From NCBI GenBank assembly GCA_946534775.1, contig CAMNCZ010000026.1, positions 1 to 8,443 of the forward strand: DNA of 8,443 nucleotides. The letters are read 5' to 3'. The position numbers and the translations under genes are program-made. Source of the DNA: an uncultured Eubacteriaceae bacterium (lineage in GTDB: Bacteria > Bacillota > Clostridia > Lachnospirales > CAG-274). Below, one piece after another: positions 2,761 to 8,443 of this stretch; position 1 is the stretch's first letter; each line of letters starts with the position of its first letter. The notes beneath the pieces are model-generated. The model did no database searches. It was given only the letters and a program-made list of their open reading frames with translations, and was not told where the DNA came from.

Positions 2761-2799
2761 ATATGAGTGATTTTATGGCTTTTGTATAATTTTTATATC

Positions 2800-2805
2800 G
2801 GAGGT
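2800..2805 (+). promoter_or_regulatory. Ribosome binding site that selects the TTG start at 2812
   Basis: GGAGGT lies six bases before TTG at 2812. The longer in-frame alternative, GTG at 2767, falls at the predicted transcription start and could have no ribosome binding site. The added 15 residues are also unlike the family's N-terminus. Confidence 0.88.
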
Positions 2806-2811
2806 AGTGTT

Positions 2812-4434
2812 TTGGCTAAGACCGAAAAAAAAGGCGGTTTTATAAAACAGGCGGCAATTCTGGCGGCGGCGGGCCTATTGGTGCGCGTGCTTGGCTTTTT
2901 GTACCGTCTGCCGCTTACGGATATGATAGGCGATGAAGGCAACGGTATTTACTCCGCGGGCTTTTATCTTTACAATATGTTCCTTATTATGAGTTCTGCG
3001 GGTCTGCCCGTGGCTATCAGCCGTATGGTGGCGGAAAAACTGGCGCTTGGGGAATATAAAAACGCAAAAAAAATATTTCGTGTTTCAATGATGACGGCGT
3101 CGTCGCTTGGTTTTATATGTATGCTTGTGATGCTTTTGTTTTCAAGGCAGTTTTGTATGCTTATAAAAAGCGAGAGAAGTTTATACTGCATAATCACGCT
3201 TGCGCCGACGGTTTTCATAGTGTCGATAATGGCGGTGTACCGCGGCTATTTTCAGGGTTTTGGCACAACTTTCCCGACGGCTATGTCACAGCTTGTGGAG
3301 CAGATATTCAATGCCGTATTCAGCGTGTTTATGGCGTGGTATCTTATGAAAACTATGACGGGCGACCTTATAGCGTGGGGCGCGGCAGGCGGTACAATGG
3401 GTACGGGCATAGGCGCATTTGCGGGCCTTGTCACGCTTGCACTTATGTTTTTTGCAACAAGAAACTACAGAAAAAGATATTTTGCCGATGACAAGGACAA
3501 CTATAAAATAGAGACCCAAAAGACGATTTTAAAAAGGCTTTTGACAATTGCCGTTCCCGTAATTACGGGTACAGCGATATTTTCAATGACCAACCTTATA
3601 GATATGGCAATGGTAAAGGACAGGCTTGCGGCGATAGGCACATACAGCGATAAAGAGATGGATGCTCTTTACGGCCTGCTTACGGGCAAATACGTTACGC
3701 TTACAACGCTGCCCGTTGCGATCTCCACAGCTATCGCAACTGCGGTAATACCGAGTATTGCGGCAAGTCTTGCGCTTAAACAGCACGATACCGTACAGTC
3801 AAAGGTAGACACTACACTGCGCCTTACAATGATGATATCCATTCCCGCGGCAGTGGGGCTGGGGGTGCTTGGCAATCAGATACTTATGATGCTTTTCCCG
3901 AATCATCCCGAGGGCGGCTCACTTTTAAGGATAGGTGCACTCAGCGTTATCTTCCTTGCTTTAAGTCAGATATCAACAGGTGTTTTGCAGGGCCTCGGCA
4001 AGGTAAATGCCCCCGCGTTCAATGCACTTTGGGGAAGCCTGGCAAAGATACCCGTAAATTATTTTCTTATCGCCATACCGCAGATAAATGTTGCGGGTGC
4101 GGTAATAAGTACAACTGTCTGCTATATGATAGCCAGCCTGCTTAATTTCCGTGCGCTTGTAAAAGCAACGGGCGCAAGCCCCGATTATGTGGGTATGCTG
4201 GTAAAACCGACAGCCGCAAGCATAATTATGGGCGCAGCCTGCATAGCGGCGTATAAACTGGTTTATATGCTTATACCGAGCAATACGGCAGCAACACTTA
4301 GCGCAGTTGTTTTTGCAATGTTTGGTTATATGGTGGGTATGATAGCCGTCAGGGGCTTTGTAAGGGAGGACCTTGCAAATGTGCCGATGGGCGGTAAATT
4401 GATAAAATTTCTTGAAAAGATAAACAGAATATAA
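2812..4434 (+). CDS. SpoVB/YtgP-like polysaccharide or lipid II flippase (MOP superfamily)
   Basis: Polytopic inner-membrane protein of the MOP superfamily, the polysaccharide-transport branch that includes Bacillus SpoVB and YtgP (a MurJ-type lipid II flippase). Such proteins move lipid-linked cell-wall or polysaccharide precursors across the membrane. With the TTG start it has 540 residues, the usual length, and a hydrophobic pattern compatible with about 14 helices. The N-terminal block (residues about 9-90) matches the family closely: a Lys-rich start, then KQAAILAAAGLLVRVLGFLY, a loop IGDEGNGIYS, GLPVAISRMV and LGEYKNAKKIF. Near residues 155-180 it has YRGYFQGFGTTFPTAMSQLVEQ, another family hallmark. 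The gene has its own promoter and terminators on both sides, so it is probably monocistronic and unrelated to its neighbours. Housekeeping lipid II flipping, a sporulation role or a polysaccharide role cannot be told apart from sequence alone, so no symbol is given. Confidence 0.93.
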   Translation: MAKTEKKGGFIKQAAILAAAGLLVRVLGFLYRLPLTDMIGDEGNGIYSAGFYLYNMFLIMSSAGLPVAISRMVAEKLALGEYKNAKKIFRVSMMTASSLGFICMLVMLLFSRQFCMLIKSERSLYCIITLAPTVFIVSIMAVYRGYFQGFGTTFPTAMSQLVEQIFNAVFSVFMAWYLMKTMTGDLIAWGAAGGTMGTGIGAFAGLVTLALMFFATRNYRKRYFADDKDNYKIETQKTILKRLLTIAVPVITGTAIFSMTNLIDMAMVKDRLAAIGTYSDKEMDALYGLLTGKYVTLTTLPVAISTAIATAVIPSIAASLALKQHDTVQSKVDTTLRLTMMISIPAAVGLGVLGNQILMMLFPNHPEGGSLLRIGALSVIFLALSQISTGVLQGLGKVNAPAFNALWGSLAKIPVNYFLIAIPQINVAGAVISTTVCYMIASLLNFRALVKATGASPDYVGMLVKPTAASIIMGAACIAAYKLVYMLIPSNTAATLSAVVFAMFGYMVGMIAVRGFVREDLANVPMGGKLIKFLEKINRI

Positions 4435-4472: not shown

Positions 4473-4518
4473 AAAAAAGTGGAGGGTGTTGCATTAAGCG
4501 ACACCCTCTCATATTTTT
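4473..4518. terminator. Bidirectional terminator between the flippase gene and the ABC operon
   Basis: An 11-bp stem, GAGGGTGTTGC (4482-4492) with GCGACACCCTC (4498-4508), closes the loop ATTAA; one pair is G-T. On the + strand five T (4514-4518) follow closely. On the - strand six T (complement of 4473-4478) follow after three bases. It lies 47 bases after the flippase stop and 11 bases beyond the DUF1847 stop, so it can end both convergent transcripts. The same hairpin recurs at 8389-8415. Confidence 0.85.
4481..4509 (+). repeat. Palindromic intergenic repeat, copy 1
   Basis: A 29-base element matches 8388-8416 at 28 positions; the only difference is T at 4490 against C at 8397. The asymmetric loop ATTAA shows both copies have the same orientation. 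This copy is the stem of the bidirectional terminator at the 3' end of the ABC operon. Confidence 0.85.
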
Positions 4519-4519
4519 A

Positions 4520-5170
4520 TCAAATTTTACTGTATAAACCGTTGTATGTCCAAAGCGGTACGCAGGGGTTATGGCCCGTTACCCTGTCTTTAACGACAAG
4601 TACTGTTGTGGGTGCCTCGGAATGTCTGATAAACAGCGCATCGTGACCTACGCAAAGGCCGATAAGTATATTAAGATCGGTCTTTTTTTGGTTGAGTATC
4701 TTTGCCTGCATTATCGGATTACACATAGATTCGTACTGCGCGCCCTTGGTAAGGGTATTTTCGGGCGGTATGCCTATCTCGGATTTTTCGATAGCACCTA
4801 TCTTACAGCCGACAGCGTAATATTCGATATTGTTCTTTTTGAGTATCTTTGCAAAAACGCCCGCTTCGTGCAAAAGACCGACACAGGTAGCTATGCCGAC
4901 TTTTTTTGCGCCATAGCGTTTGATAAATTCAACAGTTTCCTGAACGCGGGTATATTTGCCGTAAAACTGACCTTCTATCTCGGCCGCCGTAAGTGCAAGG
5001 TTTTGGTTTACCTCGTCAAAATACAGTTCCTTTGCCTCTGCAAGGAGTTCCTTGTCCACCTTTGCGGTAAGGCAAAAACGCGGATATTTGTCCTCTTCTT
5101 TATGCATACAGCTTTTCAGCGTACAATCGGCGCAGGTAAGGCATTGTCTTACTTTCTTTTCTTCACTCAT
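4520..5170 (-). CDS. DUF1847 cysteine-rich protein, predicted metal-binding
   Basis: Member of the DUF1847 family, described only as predicted metal-binding proteins; no reaction is known to me. The 216-residue protein has no signal peptide or membrane segment, so it should be cytoplasmic. It has ten cysteines: 10, 13, 16, 21 and 33 form an N-terminal cluster (C-x2-C-x2-C-x4-C, then Pro-Arg-Phe-Cys) that looks like a metal or Fe-S site; the others are 96, 122, 150, 173 and 203. Family motifs seen: GIATCVGLLHEAG (92-104), CNPIMQA (150-156), GLCVGHDALF (171-180) and KDRVTGHNPC (194-203), where Cys and His recur. Its ATG overlaps the stop of the binding-protein gene (ATGA) and its ribosome site is inside that gene, so the two are translationally coupled. 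This places a cytoplasmic thiol/metal protein as the last product of an ABC importer operon; a role in handling the imported ligand is inference. Confidence 0.9.
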   Translation of the reverse strand: MSEEKKVRQCLTCADCTLKSCMHKEEDKYPRFCLTAKVDKELLAEAKELYFDEVNQNLALTAAEIEGQFYGKYTRVQETVEFIKRYGAKKVGIATCVGLLHEAGVFAKILKKNNIEYYAVGCKIGAIEKSEIGIPPENTLTKGAQYESMCNPIMQAKILNQKKTDLNILIGLCVGHDALFIRHSEAPTTVLVVKDRVTGHNPCVPLWTYNGLYSKI

Positions 5171-6435
5171 TTTTCTTCCTCCTCGCAGCAGTCTTTTTTA
5201 ACCTCTTCTTTGTGCTTGCAGCATTCTTTTTCTTCGCTTTCTTCTTTTGCCTCTTCTTTTGCATCTTCTTTGCAGCAGTCGTCTATTTCAAGCTTGTCAA
5301 GTGTTACATCCGAAAAAGCGGAGGCGTTTGGTGTTTCTTCGTTTCTTGCGGCAAGTTCTTCCGCAGTTACGCCCGAATCCTCAAAAACTTCCTCGTCGGT
5401 AAGGTCGGGAACAGCTAAAAATGTTTTGTTGACAAATTCGTCAATATCCGTGCTTTCCTGTATAAGTCCAAGTTCCTTTATGGCGGGTGCCGAAAGTTTA
5501 AGCGCTTCCAGACCGCCTTCAAGTGACGGCTTGTAGTTGTACTGTTTTAAAACCTCCGCATTGAACTTTGCATCGCCCGATACCCAGGATTTTTCTACCT
5601 GTATCTGCGCTGTTTCCTCGGGATGCGCTTCTACCCAAAGGCTGGCTTCCATTATGGCTTTTGTAAAGTTTCTTGCGGCCTGAGGATGGTTTTGCGCAAT
5701 ATTATCCGTAACAAAGCTTATGCAGCAGTATTCGTCCTTGTAATCGTCATCTTTTGCGGTATCTATGATACATCTTAAACCAAACTCGTTTTCTGCCACG
5801 CTGCCCTGAGGGTCGCTCATTGCAACCACATCGACCGCGCCGTTTTGCAGCGCCGAGGGAAGGTCACTCATTGAAAATACCGCAAACTCGACCTCGGCTT
5901 TATCGGCGGAAACATCAATGCCCTCTTTTGCAAGCGAACGTTTTGTAATTATCGCAGGCGCCGCGCCAAGACCGGGTACGCCTATTTTTTTGCCCTTCAG
6001 GTCGGCAACGGTTTTAATATCGGAATCGCCGGGTACAAGTACCTTTGTACAGCCCGTATGTAAACCTGCGGTAACTCTCATTGGCAGGCCGTTGTCGATA
6101 GGCTGTAAAAACTTGCCCAGAAGGCCGAAGCCCGCTTCTATCTTGCCCGAACCTACCGCAGAGGCAGTCTCGGCCGCGTCAACACGTTCAAGCTCATACT
6201 TAACGCCCTCTTTGTCGAAAAATCCCTTTTCAACGGCAATGTGCAAAGGCGCTTCGCAAAGGCCGCCGCCGTAGCCTATTTTTATAACATAGTCGTCCTG
6301 CGCGGGTTCGCCGTTTTCGGCTGTCTGCGCCGTTTCGTCCCCCGTTTGGGGTGCAGCTGTCTGCTGCTCTCCACAGGCCGCAAGGCTTGCGGAAATAAGT
6401 GTTAAAATAAGTAGTTTTGCAAGTTGTTTTTTCAT
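5167..6435 (-). CDS. ABC transporter substrate-binding lipoprotein (NMT1/SsuA-like) with Cys-Cys-rich C-terminal tail
   Basis: Extracytoplasmic ligand-binding lipoprotein of the NitT/TauT (NMT1/SsuA-like) class, delivering ligand to the permease and ATPase encoded upstream. Residues 1-20 are a signal peptide with lipobox LAAC; Cys21 would be lipidated. A Gln/Glu/Thr-rich linker (22-47) precedes the two-lobe fold (about 50-345). Family-like blocks: GYGGGLCEAPLHIAVEKGFF (54-73), the region around GLLGKFLQPIDNG (104-116), LHTGCTKVLV (125-134), LKGKKIGVPGLGAAP (146-160) and ALQNGAVDVV (195-204). Core cysteines are 60, 129, 222, 237 and 238; three of these segments correspond to regions that line the ligand cleft in this fold. 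The protein is 422 residues against roughly 320-340 for relatives. The extra part is a linker (345-384) and a tail (385-422) full of Glu and Lys with Cys pairs at 387-388, 405-406 and 416-417 and a His at 408. The ATG at 6435 has AAGGAA seven bases upstream. The ligand is unknown; the cysteines suggest a thiophilic metal or its complex (inference). Confidence 0.9.
   Translation of the reverse strand: MKKQLAKLLILTLISASLAACGEQQTAAPQTGDETAQTAENGEPAQDDYVIKIGYGGGLCEAPLHIAVEKGFFDKEGVKYELERVDAAETASAVGSGKIEAGFGLLGKFLQPIDNGLPMRVTAGLHTGCTKVLVPGDSDIKTVADLKGKKIGVPGLGAAPAIITKRSLAKEGIDVSADKAEVEFAVFSMSDLPSALQNGAVDVVAMSDPQGSVAENEFGLRCIIDTAKDDDYKDEYCCISFVTDNIAQNHPQAARNFTKAIMEASLWVEAHPEETAQIQVEKSWVSGDAKFNAEVLKQYNYKPSLEGGLEALKLSAPAIKELGLIQESTDIDEFVNKTFLAVPDLTDEEVFEDSGVTAEELAARNEETPNASAFSDVTLDKLEIDDCCKEDAKEEAKEESEEKECCKHKEEVKKDCCEEEEK
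5178..5184 (-). promoter_or_regulatory. Ribosome binding site of the DUF1847 gene, inside the upstream gene
   Basis: GAGGAGG on the - strand lies seven bases before the ATG at 5170. The same bases encode the final Glu run just after the last Cys-Cys of the binding protein, so the charged tail codons double as a translation signal. Confidence 0.85.
5241..5276 (-). repeat. 12-base tandem repeat within the binding-protein tail
   Basis: Three consecutive 12-base units on the + strand: CTTCTTTTGCCT (5241-5252), CTTCTTTTGCAT (5253-5264) and CTTCTTTGCAGC (5265-5276, degenerate). On the coding strand they give the repeated Glu/Asp-Ala-Lys-Glu pattern after the first Cys pair. In-frame units of four codons could let the tail lengthen or shorten by slippage without a frameshift. 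Confidence 0.7.
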
Positions 6436-6479
6436 TTTTATGTTCCTTTCTTTGGATATTGTTTTAATGTTTAAATAGC

Positions 6480-7259
6480 TTAAATCACATATTCCTGATC
6501 GGGTTCGTTGCCCGCATAATGCAGGGTTTTGAGTATCTGCGAACGCAGCCTTAAAAACTCGGGGTTGTTCCTTGCCCTTGGACGGAAAAGTTTAACATCT
6601 ATAATGTCCTCTATTTTAGCGGGGCGCGGACTCATCACAACTATTTTGTCCGATAAATACAGCGCCTCGTCAACATCGTGAGTGACCATTACCATAGTCA
6701 TATTTTTTTCGCTTTTTATCCTTAAAAGTTCGTCCTGCATATTCATACGGGTAAAGGCATCAAGCGCGCCGAGTGGTTCATCAAGCAGCAGCACCTTGGG
6801 ATGTCCGATAAGTGCCCTGGCAAGCGATGCCCTCTGCGCCATACCGCCCGAAAGCTGGTGCGGGTAGGAGTTTGCAAAATTCTCAAGGCCGACAAGGCTT
6901 AAATATTCGCTTACTTCTTCTTTTTTTTCTTTGAAAATTTTTCTTGCTTTCAGCCCGAAAGCAACATTGTCGTAAATGCTGAGCCACGGAAAAAGTGTCG
7001 GGTTTTGAAATACCAACCCTCTTTCGTAATGTGGGCCGTCAATTTTTTCGCCGTCAAGCGATAGTTCGCCGGAGGTAGGTTTTGAAAGGCCTGCAATAAG
7101 CCTTAGCAGTGTAGTTTTGCCGCAGCCCGACGGGCCGATAAACGATACAAAGCTGCCTGCTTCTATGTCCAAATCGACGTGGTTAAGTGCCGTCAGCGTG
7201 CTGCCGTCGGGCTGTATAAAGGTCTGTACCACATCTTTTACGGTAATTTCGCCTACCAT
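6480..7259 (-). CDS. ABC transporter ATP-binding protein (SsuB/TauB/NrtD-like)
   Basis: Cytoplasmic ATPase that powers the importer. 259 residues, the usual length. In order: Walker A GPSGCGKTT (about 42-50), Q-loop VFQNPTLFPW (about 80-89), signature LSGGMAQR (about 136-143), Walker B VLLLDEP (about 156-162), D-loop GALDA (163-167) and switch His in VTHDVDEAL (about 191-199). The ERGLVFQNPTLFPWLSIYDNV stretch and the short C-terminal part are typical of nitrate/sulfonate/taurine-class importers, with no extra regulatory domain. I chose ATG at 7259 because AAGGGAG lies seven bases upstream and it overlaps the permease stop by only 7 bp (ATGGTAG), a sign of coupling; the longer ATG at 7280 has only a weak AAGG. 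All catalytic motifs are intact. A 44-base gap, with no terminator, separates it from the binding-protein gene. Confidence 0.95.
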   Translation of the reverse strand: MVGEITVKDVVQTFIQPDGSTLTALNHVDLDIEAGSFVSFIGPSGCGKTTLLRLIAGLSKPTSGELSLDGEKIDGPHYERGLVFQNPTLFPWLSIYDNVAFGLKARKIFKEKKEEVSEYLSLVGLENFANSYPHQLSGGMAQRASLARALIGHPKVLLLDEPLGALDAFTRMNMQDELLRIKSEKNMTMVMVTHDVDEALYLSDKIVVMSPRPAKIEDIIDVKLFRPRARNNPEFLRLRSQILKTLHYAGNEPDQEYVI

Positions 7260-8197
7260 TTTATCACTCCCTTCTGCCATACAAGAACCTTGTCTCTTAC
7301 CTTAAAAAGCAGGGTTATAAGCAGCGAACACAGCACCGCTATAATTATAAGACCTGCGTATACGTTTGAATAACTCATCATTTCTTTCTGCCAGTTCACA
7401 TACCAGCCAATGCCGTATTTTGCGCCTATCATCTCCGCCGTCATCAGTGTTATAAAAGATGAACAAACACCGTTGAAAAGGCCTATAAACATACTTGGCA
7501 TAGCCGACGGAACGCCTACTTTGAAGATCCTGTAAAAATAACTTGCGCCCAGTGTCGATGATACCTCAAACAGGCTGTTTGAAATGTTTTTTATGCCGCT
7601 TGATGTCATAACCGTAGTCGGGAACCATACCGCAAGGCCAATAAGAAAGGCGCTTGCCGAAACTGCGCTTGGAAAACTGATAAGTACCAGCGGTATCCAC
7701 GCTGTTGAGGGGATAGGGCCGAGTATCCTTATTATCGGGCTTATCCAGTAGTCCGCCGCTTTGCTGAAACCAACCGCAATGCCCGTAAGTATGCCGATGA
7801 ACGCGCCGCCGAAAAAGCCTGTCAGCAGCAGCCTTGCCGAATAGCCGAGGCATTTTATAAGCAGCTCTTTGTCATTTACCATTGCGCCGAAAATTCTTGA
7901 CGGTGACGGAAAGTAAATGGCGGGAAGTATGCAAAATTTTTCGGTCAACAGGTCAAGCACCGCAAAAAACACGATAACACCGGTCCAAAACGGTGCTTTG
8001 AAACTCCATTTTTCGTTAAAGCCTTTATTTGCAAGCGAAGCCAGCGCGCACATCAGTGCTATCACCCCGCCCGCAATGCTTACATACAGATAGTAATCCG
8101 CATCGGCCTTTGGATGTGTGCCGTTTGATACGACAAGCAGCTGAATCAATATCGCTGCGACAGATGCCGCTGTTGGCAGCCATTTTTTGAATGTCAT
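7253..8197 (-). CDS. ABC transporter permease (SsuC/TauC-like) with extra N-terminal membrane segments
   Basis: Membrane subunit of the importer, forming (as a presumed homodimer) the channel through which ligand from the binding protein passes. 314 residues. The core (about 65-310) has the family layout: a helix near 69-88, LPAIYFPSPSRIFGAMV (91-107), further helices, and an EAA-type coupling loop EVSSTLGASYFYRIFKVGVP (211-230) with the conserved Glu211, Gly217 and Pro230 that contacts the ATPase. It is longer than E. coli SsuC or TauC (about 263-275) because of two extra hydrophobic segments at residues 7-24 and 35-54. ATG at 8197 has AAGGAG ten bases upstream and is the first gene of the four-gene operon. 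The substrate class cannot be told from the permease; nitrate/sulfonate/taurine/HMP importers all share this fold. Confidence 0.93.
   Translation of the reverse strand: MTFKKWLPTAASVAAILIQLLVVSNGTHPKADADYYLYVSIAGGVIALMCALASLANKGFNEKWSFKAPFWTGVIVFFAVLDLLTEKFCILPAIYFPSPSRIFGAMVNDKELLIKCLGYSARLLLTGFFGGAFIGILTGIAVGFSKAADYWISPIIRILGPIPSTAWIPLVLISFPSAVSASAFLIGLAVWFPTTVMTSSGIKNISNSLFEVSSTLGASYFYRIFKVGVPSAMPSMFIGLFNGVCSSFITLMTAEMIGAKYGIGWYVNWQKEMMSYSNVYAGLIIIAVLCSLLITLLFKVRDKVLVWQKGVIKW
7267..7273 (-). promoter_or_regulatory. Ribosome binding site that decides the ATPase start
   Basis: AAGGGAG on the - strand, within the last codons of the permease gene, is seven bases before ATG at 7259. This favours the 259-residue ATPase over the 266-residue reading from 7280. 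Confidence 0.8.
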
Positions 8198-8237
8198 TTC
8201 GCTTTCTCTCCTTTTTAAGATATTTTTGATACAATTT

Positions 8238-8254
8238 CCTATATATTAAATAGG
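8238..8254. repeat. 17-bp dyad CCTAT-N7-ATAGG, possible operator over P2
   Basis: Perfect 5-bp arms CCTAT (8238-8242) and ATAGG (8250-8254) seven bases apart, covering the P2 -10 box. It matches the dyad at 8312-8328 at 12 of 17 positions. A regulator-binding site is an inference. Confidence 0.35.
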
Positions 8255-8268
8255 TTTATGGTGTGCAA
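8240..8268 (-). promoter_or_regulatory. Weaker candidate promoter (P2) of the ABC operon
   Basis: On the - strand, TTGCAC (8268-8263) and TATATA (8245-8240) are 17 bases apart, giving a start near 8233 and a leader of about 35 bases before the permease ATG. The hexamers match consensus less well than those of P1, and the region is AT-rich, so this could be chance. Confidence 0.4.
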
Positions 8269-8285
8269 GGATTTTCTTATCCCTG
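8266..8285 (-). other. Small leader hairpin downstream of promoter P1
   Basis: CAGGGAT and ATCCTTG on the - strand can pair over seven positions (one G-T) around the six-base loop AAGAAA. It sits within about five bases of the predicted P1 start, so it would be the 5' end of the operon mRNA, where it may protect the message. No known riboswitch core, such as the thiamine pyrophosphate element, is visible in the leader. Confidence 0.4.
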
Positions 8286-8295
8286 ACACAAATAG

Positions 8296-8324
8296 ATTAT
8301 AAACCATTATTCCCATTAAATCAA
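8296..8324 (-). promoter_or_regulatory. Main candidate promoter (P1) of the ABC operon
   Basis: On the - strand, TTGATT (8324-8319) and a perfect TATAAT (8301-8296) are separated by 17 bases. An A/T-tract region (8329-8345) just upstream could act as an UP element. Transcription should begin near 8289, giving a leader of about 90 bases before the permease ATG at 8197. Confidence 0.7.
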
Positions 8325-8328
8325 TAGG
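8312..8328. repeat. 17-bp imperfect dyad CCCAT-N7-ATAGG, possible operator over P1
   Basis: Arms CCCAT (8312-8316) and ATAGG (8324-8328), with one mismatched pair, cover the P1 -35 box (8319-8324). Same length, arms and N7 spacing as the dyad at 8238-8254, 74 bases away. Confidence 0.35.
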
Positions 8329-8387
8329 AAAATTCGATTTTTATTATCCTTAAATTCTATAGCCCGTTATAAGTTTTGCCTATCACA

Positions 8388-8416
8388 GGAGGGTGTCGCA
8401 TTAAGCGACACCCTCT
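8388..8416 (+). repeat. Palindromic intergenic repeat, copy 2
   Basis: Perfect 11-bp stem GAGGGTGTCGC (8389-8399) with GCGACACCCTC (8405-8415) and loop ATTAA. It matches copy 1 at 4481-4509 in 28 of 29 bases and the same orientation. Unlike copy 1 it has no T-tract immediately beside it on either strand, so its role as a terminator is less clear. It may end a neighbouring transcript from outside the window. Confidence 0.8.
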
Positions 8417-8439
8417 GGCAAAAAACAGGTTTTTTGCCA
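8416..8439. terminator. A/T-rich perfect hairpin next to repeat copy 2, possible terminator
   Basis: TGGCAAAAAA (8416-8425) pairs perfectly with TTTTTTGCCA (8430-8439) around the loop CAGG. It directly abuts the preceding hairpin, making a tandem pair. The six T are inside the 3' arm rather than after a GC-rich stem, so it is not a textbook terminator; it could serve as one in either direction, or the whole pair could be one repeat unit. The flanking gene is outside the window. Confidence 0.45.
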
Positions 8440-8443
8440 ATTA

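Follow-up and report, generated by a model that had tools for sequence, protein, structure and literature searches.

What does an ATP-binding cassette (ABC) importer carry when it shares an operon with a cysteine-rich DUF1847 protein? The question is raised by a four-gene operon in an 8,443-base stretch of DNA from an uncultured Eubacteriaceae bacterium (hereafter the window, which is the whole of contig C26 and belongs to an assembly that is 70.6% complete). The minus strand carries all four genes, which encode, in order, a permease of 314 amino acids (8197..7253, BPD_transp_1, with AAAGGAG upstream of its ATG), an ATPase of 259 amino acids (7259..6480), a substrate-binding lipoprotein of 422 amino acids with the NMT1/SsuA fold (6435..5167) and a DUF1847 protein of 216 amino acids (5170..4520). 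Most safely stated, a four-gene unit composed of a four-cysteine NMT1-type importer and DUF1847 is conserved in one branch. As to its cargo, our tentative first choice is a sulfur-containing compound, imported in an anaerobic cell with DUF1847 as its putative handler, a choice made because of the company kept by the importer subfamily and not because of the window itself.

The sequence-only reading of this stretch had taken the four genes as one unit, and the spacing that it gave is exact on the minus strand, with the unit itself conserved: permease and ATPase genes overlap by 7 bp, a gap of 44 bases separates the ATPase gene from that of the binding protein, and the latter overlaps the DUF1847 gene by 4 bp (ATGA). 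The permease stop TAG sits within ATGGTAG, so that an ATPase start at 7259, preceded by GGGAG, makes the overlap 7 bp; an alternative, longer ATPase open reading frame (ORF) from 7280 would make it 28 bp.

The importer is an NMT1/SsuA-fold, that is NitT/TauT-class, ABC system, given that PF13379/PF09084, PF00528 and PF00005 were all found above their Pfam cut-offs in one operon. The binding protein carries a lipoprotein export signal, with a hydrophobic N-terminus and the sequence SLAAC21, and C21 is present in 119 of 120 homologues (here and below, homologue counts refer to the best 120 of 440 binding-protein homologues). In fold it comes closest to nitrate, bicarbonate and sulfonate proteins, Thi5 being lower in the list, and it scores below the cut-offs of the specific models of the class: 128.3 bits with the SsuA model TIGR01728 (cut-off 163.5), 21.6 bits with TauA (cut-off 304.25), and below cut-off for the other three listed models too. 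Among NCBIfam models the best for the permease was SaoP and for the ATPase SaoA, while SaoX came second for the binding protein, all of them at scores below the equivalog cut-offs (87.9 of 295, 257.3 of 360 and 92.3 of 300 bits, respectively). Annotation as a sulfonate, nitrate or hydroxymethylpyrimidine (HMP) importer would hide the system, as had been suspected.

The binding protein has 12 cysteines, namely the lipobox residue 21, residues 60, 129, 222, 237 and 238, and the tail pairs 387/388, 405/406 and 416/417. Among these, the first constant one is C60 (GLCEAP, codon 6256..6258, minus strand), kept in 118 of the 120 homologues, followed by C129 in the motif HTGC (codons 6049..6060, minus strand; H126 in 119 and C129 in 120) and by the pair C237-C238 in EYCC (codons 5722..5727, minus strand; both in 120). 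All five residues were also present in 20 of 20 relatives not linked to DUF1847, a set made up of 18 of the 20 unlinked matches of our phylum sample and the second copies of G045 and G046; of the two remaining matches, G089 has all four cysteines and G112, whose frame ends early, has C60, H126 and C129. As controls we used 20 NMT1 binding proteins from the sub-cut-off part of the match list, and HxGC was missing from all 20 of them, so that the signature is not general to the NMT1 class. In the tree, the four-cysteine subfamily is separate from SaoX (support 100/99). By phmmer, C237-C238 align to the CCCFC stretch of Thi5, where the binding protein reads EYCCISF.

The C-terminal Cys-Cys tail, which the sequence-only reading had treated as a key feature, turned out to be variable. 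In the window it comprises three Cys-Cys pairs (5185..5277, minus strand) and is largely predicted to be disordered, with a predicted local distance difference test (pLDDT) score below 50 for residues 393-422. An extra C-terminal pair was found in 13 of 30 DUF1847-linked binding proteins (taken from fetched loci, frames of 250 residues or fewer excluded) versus none of the 20 unlinked relatives, and a pair within the last 70 residues occurs in 96 of the 120 homologues, in varying number and position. As judged from these alignments, the constant mark of the subfamily is the set of four folded-domain cysteines plus H126, and the tail is a variable addition.

On the other side of the membrane, DUF1847 is a clear member of its family (PF08901, 206.8 bits against a cut-off of 25), with no signal peptide apparent by eye and a model pLDDT of 88.9. 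The earlier count of ten cysteines was right, but only eight are invariant in the 48 aligned proteins, C10 and C203 being variable (present in 52 and 5 of 120 DUF1847 sequences, respectively). The invariant residues comprise an N-terminal Cys4 stretch CX2CX4CX11C (C13, C16, C21 and C33; 5072..5134, minus strand) and a second set (C96, C122, C150 and C173; 4652..4885, minus strand); C96 comes directly after predicted strand 90-95, C122 after strand 116-121, and C173 three residues after strand 166-170. The idea of cysteine chemistry on both sides of the membrane is thus borne out by constant cysteines in the binding protein and invariant ones in DUF1847. A DUF1847 match was present in 67 of the 299 phylum genomes sampled (above cut-off in 64), and a literature search of open-licence PubMed Central only found no paper naming DUF1847. 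A 390-residue open frame with two DUF1847 matches was seen at G091:C2:194251-195108, together with frames of 307 and 313 amino acids in G127 and G171, so DUF1847 may be duplicated or fused in some genomes.

Importer and DUF1847 are firmly associated close to the window. In its family (48 genomes), DUF1847 was detected in 12 genomes and the binding protein in 10, and the two are adjacent by position in all 10; the other two DUF1847 genomes, G001 and G003, lack the binding protein, and a second binding protein, not linked to DUF1847, occurs in G045 and G046. The adjacency in this family is not due to chance. A wider sample of 81 DUF1847 loci consisted of 80 retrieved by words of the window's DUF1847 plus the window itself and is therefore biased to near kin, some of its contigs also being too short to show every part; in it, 33 loci encode a binding protein or permease no more than five genes away and in the same orientation, and 48 have none. 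DUF1847 comes after the binding protein in 18 of the 33 linked loci, before the permease in 13 and otherwise in two. The records name Bacillota, Desulfovibrionaceae, Oxalobacter and one Alistipes as hosts, but these are mostly metagenome bins and some of the names are possibly wrong. A 100/97 branch divides the linked DUF1847 proteins into two lineages, which lie at opposite sides of the operon and of which the second (97/95) is nested among unlinked copies, while the linked binding proteins fall together in a single, modestly supported group (79/78, 76% of bootstraps). This pattern can be explained either by double recruitment of DUF1847, by replacement of a copy, or by an old link that was often lost; recruitment twice or replacement of a copy would argue for a functional tie.

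The argument for sulfur comes from the neighbours of the importer subfamily. We scored 6 kb on the same strand around all 20 unlinked four-cysteine matches of the phylum sample and around the 20 controls, with p values that are one-sided and uncorrected, some loci being near copies (L178, L179) and some contigs short. Nitrogenase-like genes were found near seven of the 20 unlinked relatives versus one of 20 controls (p 0.02), and any of nitrogenase-like genes, the Cys/Met set (CysK-type, Cys/Met pyridoxal phosphate (PLP) or homoserine succinyltransferase genes) or URO-D near 14 versus eight (p 0.06). Two loci of G045 illustrate the alternatives. L221 (positions 1-12472) has permease, ATPase, binding protein, PALP, NifB-like, NifX-like, NifH, PALP and NifD/K-like genes in one run, and L223 has MnmA, an 89-residue protein, permease, ATPase, binding protein, DUF1847, NifS and NifU, the names MnmA, NifS and NifU being carried over from the same genes in L021. 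This genome therefore has both versions of the importer, the nitrogenase-like one and that with DUF1847. In L016, a near relative of the window, CysK, MetY, the importer and DUF1847 follow in order, and in L035 and L049 a PatB-family C-S lyase gene comes directly after DUF1847 with a 4-bp overlap and no importer, a related gene being placed likewise in L040 and L059. Taken together, the context of the subfamily (nitrogenase-like genes, cysteine synthase, O-acetylhomoserine sulfhydrylase and NifS/NifU/MnmA) points to sulfur assimilation in preference to metal handling.

Some further arrangements were seen in the same comparisons. In L173 (1-14001) the importer is flanked on either side by nitrogenase-like genes, three of them above the Pfam cut-off and another two recognised by similarity, and PALP and Cys/Met-PLP genes lie in between. 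In L228 (5928-7118) the four-cysteine binding protein of G089 directly adjoins nitrogenase-like genes. L222, with the second binding protein of G046, has no nitrogenase-like or sulfur-set neighbour. URO-D family genes lie directly beside the four-cysteine binding protein in L175, L176 and L185, and we take coenzyme M methyltransferase homologues to be URO-D-type proteins like these. According to the passages seen of PMC10418091, clusters that encode coenzyme M methyltransferase homologues also contain MarHDK-like and sulfur genes.

Several results weigh against a sulfur cargo or against a general partnership. The Cys/Met set taken separately was found near 12 of the 20 unlinked relatives and seven of the 20 controls, a difference that is not significant (p 0.10). 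Around the 31 DUF1847-linked importers (32 loci minus L044, which gave no binding protein) this set occurs in only four (L016, L025, L029 and L041) versus the seven of 20 controls, and nitrogenase-like genes in none of the 31, many of whose contigs are short; nitrogenase-like D/K genes are likewise absent from among the window genes. ThiC lies upstream of the operon in L018, and an energy-coupling factor (ECF) riboflavin-type S component is encoded between ATPase and binding protein in L013 (6174-6707). Unlinked DUF1847 has diverse neighbours (aldolase, HAD, GDSL lipase, Tex, sigma factor), and the excess of sulfur genes on the DUF1847 strand (14 of 273 genes within three places versus 8 of 456 farther, p 0.01, loci not independent) used families picked after looking. 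The most recurrent neighbour of linked loci is a MacB/FtsX-like ABC transporter with DUF4418, upstream in nine of the 33. Finally, the adjacency of DUF1847 and importer, which the sequence-only reading had proposed to count across genomes, recurs in the family and in the 81-locus sample but was found nowhere else in the 299 phylum genomes: 18 of these encode the binding protein (at E values up to 1e-40) and 67 encode DUF1847, with adjacency confined to the window. In G081 and G221 the two are on the same contig, 9 kb and 22 kb apart, and among 30 DUF1847 loci of this sample, with up to 1.5 kb of flank, a strong binding-protein match was obtained only at the window's own locus (L128 gave a weak one, 56 bits). 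A broad co-occurrence at phylum scale was therefore rejected, DUF1847 being present in four of the 17 other binding-protein genomes, close to the background of 67 in 299.

If the cargo is a sulfur compound, the system may work as follows. The four constant cysteines of the binding lipoprotein are predicted to face the ligand cleft, where C60, H126, C129 and C237-C238 would form one ligand site, either directly or via a bound metal ion (zinc or iron), and the Cys-Cys tail could serve as an accessory by making thiols locally more concentrated at the membrane. The importer would bring the compound into the cell, where DUF1847 would take it and release or relay its sulfur. DUF1847, with its CX2CX4CX11C stretch and with its second cysteine set near the ends of strands in a Rossmann-like sheet, may hold a metal or an iron-sulfur cluster and would act where related operons use a nitrogenase-like reductase. 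It is a quite unlikely, more specific proposal that DUF1847 is a cysteine-cluster metalloenzyme that strips sulfur from the imported compound, a small, nitrogenase-independent counterpart of the Mar/Isr reductases that can occur alongside the nitrogenase-like version in one genome; in a variant of it, the cargo may be an iron-sulfide cluster, with iron and sulfur entering together.

Among the alternatives to a sulfur compound, capture of a soft metal, metalloid or chelate by the cysteine pocket, with the tail as a buffer and DUF1847 as a cytoplasmic carrier or sensor, fares best, and we regard it as unlikely on balance. Soft metals are classically bound by residues such as the four constant cysteines and the histidine of the binding protein and the eight cysteines of DUF1847. 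In the related fold Thi5, iron is held via CCCFC at the aligned place (PMC10512395, in the part seen), and the sections available of PMC13188914 describe as Sec-assisted organometallic the system of which SaoX, another NMT1 binding protein related to that of the window, is part. In L032 (474-9304), from a Desulfovibrio bin, DUF1847 lies directly behind a pair of genes for a pump like those of the resistance-nodulation-division (RND) type; in the window, the RND gene runs opposite to the operon and matches a multidrug model best (363 versus 263 bits for CusA/CzcA). No metal transporter, metallochaperone or metal regulator was found among the annotated part of the linked-locus neighbours, and the subfamily neighbours include the sulfur-assimilation genes described above. 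The metal explanation keeps some probability, since metal-holding cysteines look the same in sequence as those that hold a sulfur compound via a metal.

An ordinary NitT/TauT importer for a sulfonate, taurine or pyrimidine (HMP), in which the cysteines are structural and DUF1847 is a bystander, seems improbable. It would agree with the nitrate, bicarbonate and sulfonate proteins as closest folds and Thi5 further down, with ThiC in L018 and with the control importers that also lie near cysteine synthase-type genes (seven of 20); moreover, import of isethionate by SsuCAB feeds the nitrogenase-like IsrBHDK, as described in the part consulted of PMC11423573. However, the SsuA and TauA scores and those of the other three listed models are below cut-off, the absence of HxGC from every control shows that the signature is not class-wide, a sulfonate would presumably need no such cysteines, and DUF1847 is less likely to be a bystander given that the pairing recurs in two of its lineages. 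It is very improbable that the operon branched off from the Sao system without selenium and takes up an organometallic to be broken down, since in spite of SaoP and SaoA being best models and SaoX second, and of a CC pair in five of six true SaoX proteins, the three subunits fall far below cut-off, SaoX has HxGG and not HTGC with its first cysteine two places off C60, the subfamily is a separate group, and no in-frame TGA was found.

Selenocysteine in the binding protein or in DUF1847 was rejected, no in-frame TGA being found inside either gene. No in-frame stop was found inside 93 DUF1847 matches, and in 44 binding-protein matches TGA occurs only past the end (L006/L018); four binding-protein stops are at or beyond the protein end (TAA in L004/L014, TGA in L006/L018), and reading beyond the stop of 19 binding proteins revealed no cysteine-like tail. 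L011 and L017, which most likely represent a single sequence encountered twice, have an in-frame TAG at position 337, where the conserved Y236 immediately precedes the CC pair; it is the only in-frame stop at a conserved place and was taken as a broken or misread copy. None of saoC, saoD, saoE, saoL and saoT was found in a scan limited to six ORFs of the window. Riboswitch control was also rejected: at gathering scores, no Rfam riboswitch or leader heads the importer operon in the window, in 22 of the 32 other linked loci or in 11 of the first 18 unlinked loci. An E-value scan of window positions 8100-8443 gave three weak matches, below gathering scores. Rfam elements elsewhere were an S-adenosylmethionine (SAM) riboswitch in L188 and a thiamine pyrophosphate (TPP) riboswitch in L178, both opposite the importer strand, a T-box in L018, roughly 2.8 kb downstream and in the other orientation, and a tRNA gene just before DUF1847 in L041.

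The operon is bracketed by a promoter-like site upstream of the permease (TTGATT-17-TATAAT, 8296..8324, minus strand, 10 of 12 matches) and by a terminator-like palindrome just past DUF1847 (4481..4509, strand unassigned), which forms a 12-pair plus-strand stem with T runs on both sides. As such sites are about as common in shuffled sequence (8 promoter-like sites in the region versus 5.8, standard deviation 2.6; 7 terminator-like sites versus 6.2), completeness of the operon is suggested and not shown. The near-perfect palindrome GGGTGTYGCATTAAGCGACACCC is found on both sides of the operon, at 4484-4506 and 8391-8413, and has 16 genome copies at up to two mismatches versus none for the reversed control; it looks like a shared terminator or a small repeat family. 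Two plus-strand genes converge on the operon and lie outside it, an RND pump fragment (1-2625) and a SpoVB/MurJ-like flippase (2767-4434).

Among other DUF1847 neighbours, the MacB/FtsX-like transporter with DUF4418 occurs in L034, L039, L044, L046, L047, L048, L050, L052 and L057, all of them in the branch with DUF1847 first, whose members are mostly Ruminococcus; L050, from the cultured Ruminococcus albus 8, has the gene order DUF1847, permease, ATPase, binding protein. By similarity to the L034 genes, the MacB/FtsX-like transporter with DUF4418 is absent from 18 unlinked importers, 20 controls and 48 unlinked DUF1847 loci, and in L181 Pfam names another, different FtsX/MacB protein; as a partner it was set aside as clade-specific, fitting neither the sulfur nor the metal explanation. 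In L038 (1704-3532) DUF1847 lies between a DUF134/Nitro_FeMo-Co (NifX-type) protein, upstream, and a HAD hydrolase.

The repeated pairing with one importer subfamily gives DUF1847, which is common in the window's phylum, a testable pathway, and the four-cysteine signature lets annotators tell this subfamily from sulfonate and pyrimidine importers with the same Pfam names. A sulfur-compound cargo, if true, would reveal an unrecognised way in which gut bacteria obtain sulfur under anaerobic conditions, and a metal or iron-sulfide cargo would be a new nutrient class for a NitT/TauT-type importer.

Compared with known systems, the window importer differs from NitT/TauT importers of the SsuA, TauA and NrtA type in its four constant cysteines, its sub-cut-off NCBIfam scores and its DUF1847 partner. 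The Sao system (Haft and Gwadz 2023), a Sec-assisted organometallic system including SaoX that we know through portions of PMC13188914 and PMC10418091, resembles it in supplying the best or second-best models for three subunits and in the CC pair at 237/238, whereas the window system has no selenocysteine found, HTGC in place of HxGG, and a separate place in the tree. Thi5/NMT1 pyrimidine synthase, whose CCCFC motif holds iron according to the excerpt of PMC10512395, differs in that the window binding protein has two cysteines instead of that motif, a lipoprotein signal and an importer operon. A further comparison is with the nitrogenase-like C-S reductases: as far as the sections seen describe them, MarBHDK is a methylthio-alkane reductase (PMC12552129) and IsrBHDK an isethionate reductase served by the SsuCAB importer (PMC11423573). 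As in these systems, some unlinked importers of the subfamily lie near nitrogenase-like genes, and L221 combines NifB/H/D/K-like with cysteine-synthase-type genes; unlike them, the window operon has no nitrogenase-like gene and carries DUF1847 in that operon slot.

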